The position numbers were made by a program, and so were the translations under genes. This document shows, piece by piece, positions 15,176 through 19,939 of a stretch of 64,000 nucleotides of DNA. How positions within the stretch are numbered: the first letter of the stretch is position 1; every line of letters begins with the position of its first letter. Origin of the DNA: Ignavibacteria bacterium (lineage in GTDB: Bacteria > Bacteroidota > Ignavibacteria > Ignavibacteriales > Melioribacteraceae); NCBI GenBank assembly GCA_009773205.1, contig WPAE01000003.1, forward strand, positions 62,001-126,000. The letters are read 5' to 3'. The notes beneath the pieces are model-generated. The model was given only the letters and a program-made list of their open reading frames with translations, had not been told where the DNA came from and made no database searches.

Positions 15176-15331
15176 TTAGCAGTCGCATTTTATTTTTTGA
15201 GTAAGTTCGCATCCTGAACATCCGTTACAGTCAGATTTTGCCTTCTTCATCTTCAAGTTTCTATACAATGAATAAAGCACATAACTTATTGTAATCAAAA
15301 TAATCGCTAATACAAGAAAGTCTTGATTCAT
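15176..15331 (-). CDS. FeoB-associated Cys-rich membrane protein
   Basis: The small protein of 51 residues has one N-terminal membrane helix (LVLAIILITISYVLYSLY) and a cysteine-rich tail with CNGCSGC and a final CDC. This is the pattern of the FeoB-associated Cys-rich family (FeoC-like in position, unrelated in fold). The ATG at 15331 is preferred over the upstream in-frame start at 15373 because it follows the feoB stop by 10 bases without overlap. The cysteines may handle ferrous iron at the FeoB exit; this is inferred from position. Confidence 0.8.
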   Translation of the reverse strand: MNQDFLVLAIILITISYVLYSLYRNLKMKKAKSDCNGCSGCELTQKIKCDC

Positions 15332-15341
15332 AAATGCCTTT

Positions 15342-17837
15342 CTAAAAAATTGAACCAATTTGATAAACAGCAAAAGCTGCTAACCAAGCGAGAATAGTTG
15401 TATAAACCATTGTAAATACAGCCCATTTCCAATTAGCTTCTTTCTTTATTGCAGCAATTACTGCTACGCATGGAAAGTAAATTAAAATGAAAAGCATTAG
15501 AGAATAAGCAACTAATGGAGTAAAAACTTTTTCTCCAATACGCGGACCGCTTGTGAATGCTTGCTGCTGAAGTTTAGTACGCAAATTAGTCGAAGTTTCA
15601 TCTGCTTCCATATCCGATTGGTAAAGAACGCCCATTGATCCAACTACAATTTCTTTTGCCGCTAATCCGGTTAATATACTTACACCAATTTTCCAATCCC
15701 AGCCTAATGGTTGAATAACTGGAACAATCATGTGACCTAACTTACCGATGTAGGAATTTTCCATGCGTTCGGATTCTTTGTCAATTTCAATTTGTGTTAG
15801 CTGCTCTTCTTTTTGAGTTTCAGTTAAAGAATTGTTAGACGAAACTTTTTCGCTTAGCTCATCATAATTGATTGAATATTCTACTTCACGCGGAAAATAT
15901 CCCAAAGCCCAAATTATAATTGATGCAGTAAGAATTACGGTTCCCATTTTTGTAAGATACTGAATGCTCTTACTCCACATGTGAATTAATGTATTTCGTA
16001 AAGTAGGAATTCTATAAGGAGGAAGTTCCATTACAAATGGAACATCTTGTTTAGCAAAAAATATTCTCTTAAAAAGTAGAGCAGCTAAAATTGCGAGAAG
16101 AATTCCTATCAAATAAATTGAAAGAAGAACCAATCCTTGATTTTGAGGAAAGAATGCCGAAATAAATAAAACGTAAACGGGCAGACGTGCGCTGCAAGAC
16201 ATGAAAGGAATAATTAGCATTGTAAGAATTCTGTCTTTTCTATTTTCGAGCGTACGTGTTGACATAACAGCAGGAACATTACAGCCAAATCCCATAATAA
16301 GTGGAATAAAAGATTTGCCGTGCAACCCAATTTTATGCATCAACTTATCCATAATAAAAGCGGCTCTTGCCATATATCCTGTATCTTCCATTAAAGAGAT
16401 ACAGAAGAAAAGAATAAGAATGTTAGGCAAGAAAATTATTACTCCGCCTACACCGCCTATAATTCCATCTATAATTAAATCGTGTAAAGACCCATTCGGA
16501 AAAATACTTGAAACTAAGCTGCCCAATACTCCAATGCCGGCATCAATCCAATCCATTGGATAGCTGCCAAGCGAGAATGTAAGCTGAAACATCAGCCATA
16601 AGAAAACTATGAAAACCGGAAAGCCTAAATACTTGTGTGTAAGAATTATATCAATTGCATGACTTTTCTGTCGGCGGTTTAACTGCTTTTGAGCATAAGT
16701 CTCTTTTAGAACACCGCTGATAAATCCATATTTAGCATCGGCTATTATTGTATCTGATTTCTCCTTAAACTCTTTTTCAAGTTTCGTAATTTCTTTTTTA
16801 GCTGCTGCAACCATTTCTTCTGTTTTAGGTAAAGCAGAAAGCAGAGCATTAAAAGATTTATCATTCTCTATTAGTTTGATTGCTGCGTAACGCGGGTAAT
16901 ACAAATCGCTTAAATGAGAGTTCTTCTTTATTAATGTAGTTAACCGCTCTAAAGATTCCTCTAAATTTGTTCCGTAATTAATCTGTGCGTTTCTGGAAAT
17001 CGGATCATTGTTTTCGTAAACGTCAATTACTTTTCTAATAAGTTCTTTAATTCCTTCTCCTTTAGAAGCAACAGTTGTAACAATTGGGATACCGATAATC
17101 TTCCCAAGATTTGCGTAATCAAGTTTATCGCCTTTGTTTTCAAGCTCATCATACATATTAAGTGCAATCACAACATTGATATTCATATCCATCAACTGTG
17201 AAGTAAGAAATAAATTTCTTTCAAGATTAGAAGCGTCAATTACATTTACTACTACATCTGGCATCTTTTCGGAAATATGTTTTCTCACAAAAAGTTCTTC
17301 TGGAGAATATTCCGAAATAGAATAAGTACCGGGCAGATCTGTAATATTTATCGTGTATCCATCTTGAGTTAAGTGAGCTTCTTTTGTATCAACAGTTACT
17401 CCGCCGTAGTTGCCAACACGCTCATGCTTTCCGGTAGCATAATTAAATAATGTTGTTTTACCAGAATTGGGATTTCCTACAAGAGCAATGTTTATAGTGT
17501 GAGTTTTAACTACAACACTTTGCTCCATAGAAGGGTAAGTAATACTTCCTTCAAAAGAAGTTTCTGTTACAGTGGATAATTCATCAGAGTGAACAACTTC
17601 AATTAGCTCGGCTTCACTTCTTCTAAGAGAAACTCTGAATCCGAGTATTTCGTACTCGATTGGGTCTTGAAGAGGAGCGTTCTTAATTACTTTTACAGCT
17701 TTCCCTTTAACAAAACCCATTTCGGTAATGCGCTTGCGGAAAGCTCCGTGTCCTTTAACTTTCGTAATTATTCCAACTCCATCATTGTGAAGATCGGATA
17801 GGTGTAAAGTTTCGATATTTGATTCTGAATATGTCAT
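15342..17837 (-). CDS. feoB: FeoA-FeoB fusion, ferrous iron transporter
   Basis: FeoB imports ferrous iron through the inner membrane and is driven or gated by its cytoplasmic GTPase. The protein (831 residues from the ATG at 17837; the longer frame uses a TTG at 17855) starts with an SH3-like FeoA domain (about residues 10-85). The G domain follows with GNPNSGKT, DLPGTYS and NMYDE. The membrane part has the two gate-like segments including GFGCNVPAVMSTRTLENRKDR and CSARLPVY. Fusion of FeoA to FeoB is common in Bacteroidetes. The start lies one base after the stop of a porin remnant, so the transporter was probably translated behind that porin. Confidence 0.95.
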   Translation of the reverse strand: MTYSESNIETLHLSDLHNDGVGIITKVKGHGAFRKRITEMGFVKGKAVKVIKNAPLQDPIEYEILGFRVSLRRSEAELIEVVHSDELSTVTETSFEGSITYPSMEQSVVVKTHTINIALVGNPNSGKTTLFNYATGKHERVGNYGGVTVDTKEAHLTQDGYTINITDLPGTYSISEYSPEELFVRKHISEKMPDVVVNVIDASNLERNLFLTSQLMDMNINVVIALNMYDELENKGDKLDYANLGKIIGIPIVTTVASKGEGIKELIRKVIDVYENNDPISRNAQINYGTNLEESLERLTTLIKKNSHLSDLYYPRYAAIKLIENDKSFNALLSALPKTEEMVAAAKKEITKLEKEFKEKSDTIIADAKYGFISGVLKETYAQKQLNRRQKSHAIDIILTHKYLGFPVFIVFLWLMFQLTFSLGSYPMDWIDAGIGVLGSLVSSIFPNGSLHDLIIDGIIGGVGGVIIFLPNILILFFCISLMEDTGYMARAAFIMDKLMHKIGLHGKSFIPLIMGFGCNVPAVMSTRTLENRKDRILTMLIIPFMSCSARLPVYVLFISAFFPQNQGLVLLSIYLIGILLAILAALLFKRIFFAKQDVPFVMELPPYRIPTLRNTLIHMWSKSIQYLTKMGTVILTASIIIWALGYFPREVEYSINYDELSEKVSSNNSLTETQKEEQLTQIEIDKESERMENSYIGKLGHMIVPVIQPLGWDWKIGVSILTGLAAKEIVVGSMGVLYQSDMEADETSTNLRTKLQQQAFTSGPRIGEKVFTPLVAYSLMLFILIYFPCVAVIAAIKKEANWKWAVFTMVYTTILAWLAAFAVYQIGSIF

Positions 17838-17838
17838 A

Positions 17839-18006
17839 TTAAAAAATGATTCCAAATCTAATAAAAGCGGCTAATGAATTGTCTAAGTTTTTTCCGCTTC
17901 TAGCTGGATTTATTATGTACTGAAAATCGGGTTGAATGAAGAAATTCTCCATCAAAGTTGATTTGTAAAACACTTCAATTACTGTTTCGCTTTCCTCGAA
18001 TCTAAC
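17839..18006 (-). pseudogene. C-terminal remnant of an OprB-type carbohydrate porin
   Basis: The minus-strand frame of 55 codons ends with a TAA one base before the feoB ATG. It contains SETVIEVFYK, QPDFQYIINPA and a final strand ending RFGIIF. This matches the end of OprB-family porins (ETxxExYY...QPDxQYIxNP...LRxxxxF). A stop codon (18007-18009) closes the frame upstream, and no signal peptide or barrel start was found in the preceding 180 bases. The remnant suggests that an outer-membrane porin once preceded feoB in this transcript and was mostly deleted. Confidence 0.72.
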
Positions 18007-18101
18007 TTAACACGCTAGAACAAAAGCGAAACTGTTTGAACTACAACTCACTATTTATATATAACCACGTTTTTCTTTGGCAAGTTCTATATTCATAGTA
18101 A

Positions 18102-18181
18102 TTAATCTATCGGCTTCTGAAGAGTAGTTCAATCACTAAAAAGAGGGAATTTGTAATGTAAAATCCCTAAAAGTAGGGATT
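18102..18181 (-). promoter_or_regulatory. Promoter A upstream of the porin remnant and feoB
   Basis: On the minus strand an ATTG (18130-18133) is followed after 20 bases by TAGATTAA (18102-18109), close to the Bacteroidetes consensus TTG-N20-TANNTTTG. Upstream lie a pyrimidine tract and a perfect palindrome AATCCCTA-4-TAGGGATT (18162-18181). The same arrangement with the same spacing occurs in promoter B (18547-18624). The -7 box matches 6 of 8 positions if both N are allowed. Confidence 0.55.
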
Positions 18182-18186
18182 GGTAA

Positions 18187-18522
18187 TCAATTCAAGCTTA
18201 CTTTATAACTGTCGGTAAAGTACATTCGATTATTATTGAGTTTAGGAAACAGAAGAGTTTTAAGCTCATTTAGCTCTGCAATTGAGAGCAGTACATTTAT
18301 GTTTTTACTATTAACAGAAATAATAATTTTTCTGCTAAAAACTGATCTGGCGTTTTTGGAGTGCCAGTATTTGCCATCTATTTTACCAACATAATCTGCA
18401 AAAGCATGGTACTCATCATCGGTAAATTTTATAAATAGATTATTGAACTCAAGAAATATTTTATTGCAGTTTGTACATATAATTATTTTTCCATTTGCGG
18501 TATGGTTCAATGTTTTGTTCAT
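18187..18522 (-). CDS. Small conserved protein with CxxC motif, possibly DUF6686 family
   Basis: The 111-residue protein has CTNCNKIFLEFNNLF near the N-terminus (Cys at about 16 and 19). This resembles the CxxC-plus-FNN/GFGN segment of a small Bacteroidetes family that I associate with DUF6686. The rest is mixed alpha/beta without further motifs. It has its own strong promoter (promoter B) and sits between a LuxR-type regulator and the Feo genes. A role in iron or nitrosative stress is suggested only by position. The family name is from memory and should be treated as moderate. Confidence 0.55.
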   Translation of the reverse strand: MNKTLNHTANGKIIICTNCNKIFLEFNNLFIKFTDDEYHAFADYVGKIDGKYWHSKNARSVFSRKIIISVNSKNINVLLSIAELNELKTLLFPKLNNNRMYFTDSYKVSLN

Positions 18523-18546
18523 AGTAATACACCCGATTGTTAATCC

Positions 18547-18624
18547 AAATGTATTTTTCGCTTTGTCTTAGTTCAATCACAAAAAAGAGTGAAAATATAT
18601 TAGCAAATCACTACTAATTGGGAT
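18547..18624 (-). promoter_or_regulatory. Promoter B with shared upstream operator, driving the CxxC protein
   Basis: On the minus strand ATTG (18575-18578), a 20-base spacer and TACATTTG (18547-18554) give a full Bacteroidetes-type promoter 25 bases before the ATG at 18522. The plus-strand tract at 18570-18594 matches 18125-18149 in 23 of 25 positions (TAGTTCAATCAC then A-rich GAG). A degenerate version of the palindrome of promoter A (AATCACTA...TGGGAT) stands at the same distance. The repeat points to a common activator or repressor. Confidence 0.7.
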
Positions 18625-18627
18625 GCA

Positions 18628-19239
18628 CTAATTTTTATAATCTTCCAAGAGTATAATTTTGTTAGAAATGGCGTAAATAGTTAAACCGGCTTGGCTTTTA
18701 ATTCCGGTTTTCTGAGATATGTTTTTACGATGACTGATTACAGTATGAATGCTAATGTTTAGATGATCTGCAATCTCTTTATTTGAAAAACCTTTAATGA
18801 TCTGTTTCAAGACATCAATTTCTCTATCAGAAAGAAGCTCTTGTTCATCTTCAAGAGAAAGATGATTTTCGTTGCTGCTTATATTTGTTAGTTGTTTAGA
18901 AATTGATTCGGCTGAGTCTGTGATGTTAATAATTCTATCAAATTGAGAAAGCAGATTATGATCGAAGAAATTATAAACAAGAGCAACCCAAATAATTGCG
19001 GGAAAGTTTTTCTGTATCGAGGCAAACTCTTTATTCTTATTCTGTATAAGAGTAGGATTTACTATTGCTAAATCAAACCTGCCGTGCGCTGCATGGTTCT
19101 GAATTTCACTTAAACTATCGGTTCTAATTAAATGAAAATGATGCCCCGATTTAGAAATTATGTTAGAGATACCTTCAAACACAATTAGCGAAGGCTCAAA
19201 GACAACAATATTTGTGCTTGGCTTATTCACTGCATTCAA
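18628..19239 (-). CDS. LuxR-family regulator with degenerate receiver domain
   Basis: The 203-residue protein has an N-terminal receiver-like domain (about 8-125) and a C-terminal LuxR helix-turn-helix (about 138-200: LSDREIDVLKQIIKGFSNKEIA then SIHTVISHRKNI). The receiver lacks the usual acidic pair at the end of strand 1 (VVFEPS). The expected phospho-acceptor Asp is Asn in AIVNPTL. Phosphorylation is therefore unlikely and another signal may control it. Its start overlaps the hemerythrin gene by 17 bases, so the two are translationally coupled. It is a natural candidate to bind the shared sequence of promoters A and B, which is inference. Confidence 0.8.
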   Translation of the reverse strand: MNAVNKPSTNIVVFEPSLIVFEGISNIISKSGHHFHLIRTDSLSEIQNHAAHGRFDLAIVNPTLIQNKNKEFASIQKNFPAIIWVALVYNFFDHNLLSQFDRIINITDSAESISKQLTNISSNENHLSLEDEQELLSDREIDVLKQIIKGFSNKEIADHLNISIHTVISHRKNISQKTGIKSQAGLTIYAISNKIILLEDYKN

Positions 19240-19939
19240 TTTGGCTTACAAGTGGTATTAATATGGTCTCTTCGATTATAGAGTGAATATTCAAGTCGTT
19301 CTCTAGTTCGCACAAACATTTGATTATTTTTCTTCTAATTACTCTATCGTTTTCTACAGGAACGTGTTTTAGTAAAAGTGCTTTTAAGTCATTCAGCTTA
19401 GATTCAATATCTGAATGATGCTCTTGATATTCATTAACCGAATATGGCTCTAGTTTTTCTTCTTTGCCTCCAATTTCGTTTTTTAACAGTTTGTTGAAGT
19501 ATGGAAAAGCTACGCGGTTTTCGTAATGAAGATGCTCTTTAACTTCGTTGAAGTATTCATCAAAGAACTTTTCAATAAGCTTTATCTCTGCTGAGTTATT
19601 TTGTATCTGAAGCTGTTCCAAATAACTTCTTATTTCCGGGTATTTTTCATTTTCGTAATAATTGTGGCTGTTCTTAAGAAATTTAATAATCGCCGCCATA
19701 TCATCGCGCGTTAGGTTTTGCTGCTCTGTTGGCTGGAATCCGTTGTATAGGTTTGCTATCAAAATAAACAGATCTTCATTTATATTACTTGCTGCGCATA
19801 ATTGTTTTACTGTCTTTTCATGTACTATAAAATCAATCTCTAAATGCTCCATTAACAAAAGCAAATTCGGATTCTCAAAAACCAAGCTGGAAATTTTCAT
19901 TTCCGGCTTAATATAATTCCCTTTACTAAGATTACTCAT
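19223..19939 (-). CDS. Hemerythrin HHE-domain protein, RIC/ScdA-like
   Basis: Proteins of this type carry a non-haem di-iron site and repair iron-sulfur clusters or sense oxygen or NO. The 238-residue protein has an N-terminal region (about 10-80) in the position of the DUF542/ScdA_N helix domain, with a Cys at about 48. A four-helix hemerythrin domain follows, with iron-ligand candidates in SHNYYENEKYP, EHLHYENRVAFPYF, EYQEHHSDIE and NIHSIIEETILIPL. It is the first gene of the iron/stress block and overlaps the LuxR regulator, so it may serve as the sensor of that regulator. Confidence 0.8.
   Translation of the reverse strand: MSNLSKGNYIKPEMKISSLVFENPNLLLLMEHLEIDFIVHEKTVKQLCAASNINEDLFILIANLYNGFQPTEQQNLTRDDMAAIIKFLKNSHNYYENEKYPEIRSYLEQLQIQNNSAEIKLIEKFFDEYFNEVKEHLHYENRVAFPYFNKLLKNEIGGKEEKLEPYSVNEYQEHHSDIESKLNDLKALLLKHVPVENDRVIRRKIIKCLCELENDLNIHSIIEETILIPLVSQIECSE

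Follow-up and report, generated by a model that had tools for sequence, protein, structure and literature searches.

Tandem dyads in promoters beside a hemerythrin-LuxR gene pair: a predicted operator for iron limitation in Ignavibacteria and Bacteroidales

The window analysed here is a stretch of 64,000 nucleotides from an Ignavibacteria-type genome of 4.14 Mb, the closest relatives with a name being MAGs of Ignavibacteria/Stygiobacter. All its genes of interest lie on the minus strand, in a block that runs from a hemerythrin gene to feoB. The hemerythrin gene comes first and overlaps a gene coding for a LuxR-type regulator, an order common to nearly all the loci that we collected. The genes of the block are as follows.

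19223..19939, minus strand: RIC/YtfE-like hemerythrin protein with six candidate diiron ligands, all invariant; 17-nt overlap with luxR
18628..19239, minus strand: LuxR/NarL-type regulator, with a GerE helix-turn-helix and a pseudo-receiver whose acceptor Asp is replaced by Asn
18187..18522, minus strand: DUF6686 protein with a CxxC motif, predicted target of promoter B
17842..18043, minus strand: remnant of an OprB-type porin, found by tblastn
15342..17855, minus strand: FeoA-FeoB fusion, predicted target of promoter A; feoAB lies downstream of the dyads in most relatives
15176..15373, minus strand: FeoB-associated Cys-rich membrane protein

The porin remnant, already recognised by a sequence-only reading of this DNA, is genuine: it corresponds to the C-terminal 65 or so amino acids of an OprB-type porin, is interrupted by one internal stop and is 60% identical to the porin C terminus of another locus, L043 (tblastn). 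Relatives have an intact OprB-type porin of 380-400 aa between the dyads and feoAB; with the window porin reduced to its last ~65 residues, promoter A now lies about 250 bp upstream of feoAB.

Each of the two promoters consists of two tandem 20-bp dyads of the type AATCMCTA-N4-TAGKGATT, exactly 31 bp apart, the proximal one running into a -33 TTG, with a -7 box of the TAnnTTTG type exactly 20 nt further on, as in the aligned relatives.

18162..18181, minus strand: promoter A, distal dyad AATCCCTA-CTTT-TAGGGATT, perfect (8/8)
18131..18150, minus strand: promoter A, proximal dyad ATTCCCTC-TTTT-TAGTGATT, 31 bp from the distal dyad
18130..18132, minus strand: promoter A, -33 TTG, overlapping the proximal dyad; aligned with GATTG in relatives
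18102..18109, minus strand: promoter A, -7 box TAGATTAA, weak, 20 nt after TTG
18606..18625, minus strand: promoter B, distal dyad CATCCCAA-TTAG-TAGTGATT, degenerate (5/8)
18575..18594, minus strand: promoter B, proximal dyad TTTCACTC-TTTT-TTGTGATT, 31 bp from the distal dyad
18574..18576, minus strand: promoter B, -33 TTG
18546..18553, minus strand: promoter B, -7 box TACATTTG, perfect, 20 nt after TTG

The sequence-only reading had noticed two matching segments here, and they are real: TAGTTCAATCAC and the A-tract that follows share 23 of 25 bases (18125-18149 versus 18569-18593). It was also right to call the palindrome beside them perfect in A but degenerate in B. The box of TANNTTTG type that it placed 20 nt on is indeed perfect in B, and is weak in A. 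Its count of one palindrome per promoter has to be revised, as the conserved 25-mer is itself a dyad, and each promoter therefore contains two, the second inside the 25-mer. The elements have the form of a Bacteroidota housekeeping promoter (TAnnTTTG some 20 nt after TTG), with a weak box in A; scanning the sites for E. coli-type sigma-70 promoters gave nothing useful. If transcription starts about 7 nt past the -7 box, the dyad centres would fall near -42 and -73.

For comparison, hemerythrin-LuxR loci were gathered from 16 relatives and from a further set of 46 contigs, almost all of which belong to Bacteroidota. Using a pattern derived from the window, tandem dyads 31 or 32 bp apart were found just downstream of luxR in many loci, in Ignavibacteria as well as in Bacteroidales. 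Among 50 orthologous loci, this pattern was matched at 23/32 or better in 17 at a spacing of 32 and in 5 at a spacing of 31, while the other spacings gave about one locus on average. Most of 40 permuted half-sites recovered 0-2 loci, and two close permutations recovered 13 and 8. The 22 promoters with a spacing of 32 form a gapless alignment of 86 columns, which is rich in information at both dyads, at GATTG and at the -7 box, and has next to none in the DNA between them; the 20-nt distance to the -7 box is fixed across all 22.

A search of the genome with a single dyad, allowing 3 mismatches, gave 63 matches per strand, versus 52 for a reversed control, and was thus uninformative, so that a model with two dyads was needed. 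Such a model (R1) was built from the 22 spacing-32 promoters of relatives, with the window sequences excluded. In the 4.14-Mb genome it placed promoter A first (E = 9.9e-8) and promoter B second (E = 2.7e-7), and the objection that the motif might occur at random across the genome thus fails. The third site (C459:66786-66865, E = 3.6e-6) is unlinked to A and B; downstream of it are genes for an outer-membrane protein (DUF6662) and a small cytochrome c-like protein and, further on, an RND efflux operon. The fourth is weak (E = 0.006) and lies upstream of a TonB receptor gene. Matches below about 22 bits were counted as noise, because genomes devoid of the regulator reach the same level.

The third site has a counterpart in a second genus of the family (G008:C4:200535-200614), with site and promoter identical over 91 nt. 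The genes behind both copies code for the DUF6662 outer-membrane protein and the cytochrome c-like protein, the RND operon further on being metal-efflux-like. Such identity may possibly reflect a recent transfer.

The presence of sites follows that of the regulator. A site at E<=1e-5 was found in 13 of 16 relatives possessing the regulator and in 0 of 16 family members lacking it, in which the best match had an E value of 3.4e-4 (Fisher test, 3e-6, a count that ignores phylogenetic relatedness). The motif is thus kept with the regulator, as had been anticipated from the window. Half of the regulator-bearing relatives (8/16) had supplied a training locus; when trained sites are left out, an untrained site at E<=3e-5 remains in 9 of the 16. 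Among 149 Bacteroidales genomes, a site at E<=1e-4 was present in 41 of the 102 with a hemerythrin of the family and in 2 of the 47 without (Fisher test, 1.6e-6, again ignoring relatedness), a contrast that is unchanged by the at least 3 of the 41 that hold training loci or near copies of them. The remaining 61 of the 102 had no site at this threshold, the model having been trained mostly on other lineages and the filters being stricter. The association extends to a genome (G088) in which the porin-feoAB operon has a site while the regulator sits on another contig. Ignavibacteria without the regulator also lack the close FeoAB type, so inheritance of the whole block could explain part of the co-occurrence in that lineage. 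The same lack defeated a control meant to show that relatives without the regulator keep this feoAB but have no dyads before it.

One genome (G354) has an OprB-type porin and feoAB behind a good site, and no hemerythrin partner was found in it. Either the regulator has been lost or the assembly is incomplete.

The genes behind the sites point to iron. In seven loci they are feoAB, with or without an OprB-type porin gene ahead of them, and in seven others a recurrent pair coding for an outer-membrane protein and an FMN_bind protein. Flavodoxin genes follow the site in three loci, and TonB receptor genes were also found, in one of the flavodoxin loci with an HmuY-family gene after the receptor. 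DUF6686 genes follow in three loci, FecR in one (L176), TetR with a methyltransferase in another (L216), and a protein of DUF438-hemerythrin-PAS_10 make-up in a further one (L228, 489-1730). In three loci (L220, L227 and L271) the genes behind the site are those of the hemerythrin-LuxR pair itself. The names FMN_bind, HmuY, flavodoxin and porin come from Pfam for the members scanned, and from BLAST or visible similarity for the rest. From these sequence predictions, the target set comprises iron acquisition (with feoAB, TonB receptors and the HmuY-family gene) and iron sparing. It resembles the published iron-limitation stimulons of Bacteroides thetaiotaomicron, Porphyromonas gingivalis and P. 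intermedia (PMC10434189). The sequence-only reading had proposed to check for iron, NO or denitrification genes behind the motif; iron genes are indeed there, and a NO/denitrification regulon was rejected, as no nor, nos, nir or hcp gene, or any like them, was recognised among the downstream genes inspected behind strong sites. The proposal of two co-regulated promoters, with feoB and the gene of the CxxC (DUF6686) protein as targets, is supported by conservation and co-occurrence.

In a Petrimonas MAG, one contig (G216:C9) that also has the hemerythrin-LuxR genes contains at least 5 sites within about 40 kb, preceding flavodoxin, TonB receptor, TetR and lipoprotein genes, a sort of "iron island".

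The regulator has a GerE helix-turn-helix (PF00196, E = 2.7e-17, above the cut-off) and a receiver-like N-terminal domain, as have the response regulators of the NarL, RcsB and VraR type. Unlike in these, the acceptor position is occupied by Asn in 35 of 43 family members and by Asp in only 3, and there is no kinase gene within the hemerythrin-LuxR unit. With the acceptor Asp replaced, phosphorylation at that position is unlikely. The sites differ as well: NarL recognises a 7-2-7 site, unlike the dyads of the window type, which have TA at their inner ends (CCCTA-N4-TAGGG).

Its partner has the RIC/YtfE fold, a four-helix bundle, YtfE being the best PDB fold, and shares with the diiron proteins RIC, YtfE and ScdA the pattern of four His and two Glu ligands. 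The six candidates (H92, H136, E140, H175, H219 and E223) are invariant in 39 sequences, with H92 one column off YtfE H84 in the HMM alignment. The protein departs from the RIC/YtfE/ScdA group in three respects: (i) against the TIGR03652 equivalog it scores 52.7 bits, far below the cut-off of 204.7; (ii) the adjacent Cys pair of the RIC N-terminal domain is absent from the alignment, where a single invariant Cys48 is found instead; and (iii) it is always paired here with a LuxR gene. The loss of the acceptor Asp, together with the operon shared with a diiron protein, suggests that the LuxR protein could be gated directly by its partner. The fusion of the hemerythrin protein and the regulator into one protein in P. 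intermedia (PMC10434189) supports a physical partnership of the two.

Gene pairs of this kind have been described before. In CdhR/PG1236-PG1237 of P. gingivalis and BT0519-BT0520 of B. thetaiotaomicron, the gene order is as here, a hemerythrin-domain protein and then a DNA-binding regulator (PMC10434189), and the window pair is of this type, a likeness judged from the published operon description. These operons, which are connected with hmuYR and with iron genes, are induced by iron depletion, 16-20-fold for BT0519-20 and about 7-fold for PG1236-37, and CdhR regulates hmuYR, by a mechanism that the authors of the 2023 paper call unclear (PMC10434189). The window pair differs from them in that it belongs to environmental Ignavibacteria and has feoAB, an OprB-type porin and DUF6686 as neighbours. 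For PG_0686 of P. gingivalis, a make-up of hemerythrin and PAS10 has been reported, like that of the L228 protein, and in a PG_0686 mutant cdhR is raised. We found no description of an operator or of a tandem-dyad architecture for CdhR or BT0519-20 in open PMC papers; the gene pair is already known, and its DNA sites appear to be new as far as that literature shows.

The anatomy of the sites, their conservation, their co-occurrence with the regulator, the classes of target genes, the predicted folds and the ligand residues form the basis for our main reading, to which we give a probability of roughly 77%: sites A and B would be the operator of a hemerythrin-coupled, LuxR-type activator responding to iron limitation, with a local and a genome-wide iron regulon. 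We infer that the LuxR/NarL-type protein from the adjoining gene binds both dyads, probably as dimers; that it may bind here had been proposed from the window, and conservation and co-occurrence now favour it. From these dyads, which are some three turns of the helix apart (31-32 bp) and centred near -42 and -73, it would help RNA polymerase at a weak -33/TAnnTTTG promoter. Its activity would be gated by the RIC/YtfE-like diiron hemerythrin rather than by phosphorylation, the acceptor Asp having been lost. The hemerythrin would presumably report iron supply, or else O2 or redox state via its diiron site. Shortage of iron may lead the pair to switch on feoAB, the porins and receptors of the outer membrane, flavodoxin and DUF6686. 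The observation from which the work started is confirmed, and its interpretation is supported in the main points and sharpened.

A wider claim is more tentative, and we would put it at somewhat less than even: that hemerythrin-LuxR pairs are a main iron-limitation regulator in much of the Bacteroidales and Ignavibacteria, replacing canonical Fur control, with the diiron hemerythrin directly gating a phosphorylation-independent LuxR activator that reads the tandem-dyad operator. In mammals, the ubiquitin-ligase subunit FBXL5 has a diiron hemerythrin domain that reports iron and O2, and controls iron homeostasis. If the wider claim is true, the hemerythrin-LuxR logic would be a bacterial counterpart of this sensing, a comparison of how the systems work alone, as FBXL5 is not a transcription system and the likeness is one of domain type. 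The control of iron uptake in Bacteroidota has been described as poorly known (PMC10434189), and the mode of action of Fur in P. gingivalis is non-canonical (PMC6613475). With a defined operator, a fixed promoter geometry, predicted targets and a candidate regulator that has a diiron partner, the question can be tested directly, and the definition of the operator lets the regulon be predicted from genome sequence.

The same proteins and sites could act in the opposite sense. An iron- or O2-loaded hemerythrin complex on the dyads might block the promoter, which would be freed when iron is short, and the proximal dyad does abut, and slightly overlap, the -33 element. However, LuxR/NarL-type activators classically sit at positions like those of the dyads, with centres near -42 and -73 and on a single face of the helix, the -33 element is cut down to TTG, and cdhR and hmuYR transcripts rise together in a trkA mutant of P. 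gingivalis (PMC9666725). None of these points is decisive; we regard repression as unlikely.

We find it less probable still that another iron-responsive factor, Fur/DtxR-like or CRP/FNR-like (HcpR, for example), binds the dyads, the hemerythrin-LuxR pair being just one of its target operons or a co-inherited neighbour. The targets are as expected of an iron regulator, sites also occur upstream of the pair itself in three loci, and the hemerythrin partner was not detected in two Bacteroidales genomes with sites; but the presence of sites tracks the pair in two lineages, AATCCCTA-N4-TAGGGATT resembles neither the E. coli Fur box nor TTGAT-N4-ATCAA, and the Fur of P. gingivalis binds neither the E. 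coli Fur box nor iron (PMC6613475).

That the palindromes might be RNA hairpins, terminating luxR and the DUF6686 gene, is very improbable. Both lie just past a stop codon, and good folding is predicted for the perfect dyad of A (-9.1 kcal/mol, z = -3.5), but this dyad is the only one of the four to fold as a dyad hairpin, the other three forming none or folding no better than shuffles. No T-run follows the palindromes, and terminators would leave unexplained both the fixed phase to the second dyad and the -7 box and the sites far from upstream gene ends (such as L035 and L071); this reading was rejected. Least credible of all is that one of the promoters was recently copied from the other, as a duplicated intergenic segment devoid of regulatory meaning, since, in spite of the 23 identical bases in 25, identity is limited to the dyads and the -33 element, relatives show the same architecture with different sequence between the elements, and the third genomic site is unlinked; a chance repeat or a copied segment was rejected on the comparative spacing and the genome ranking.
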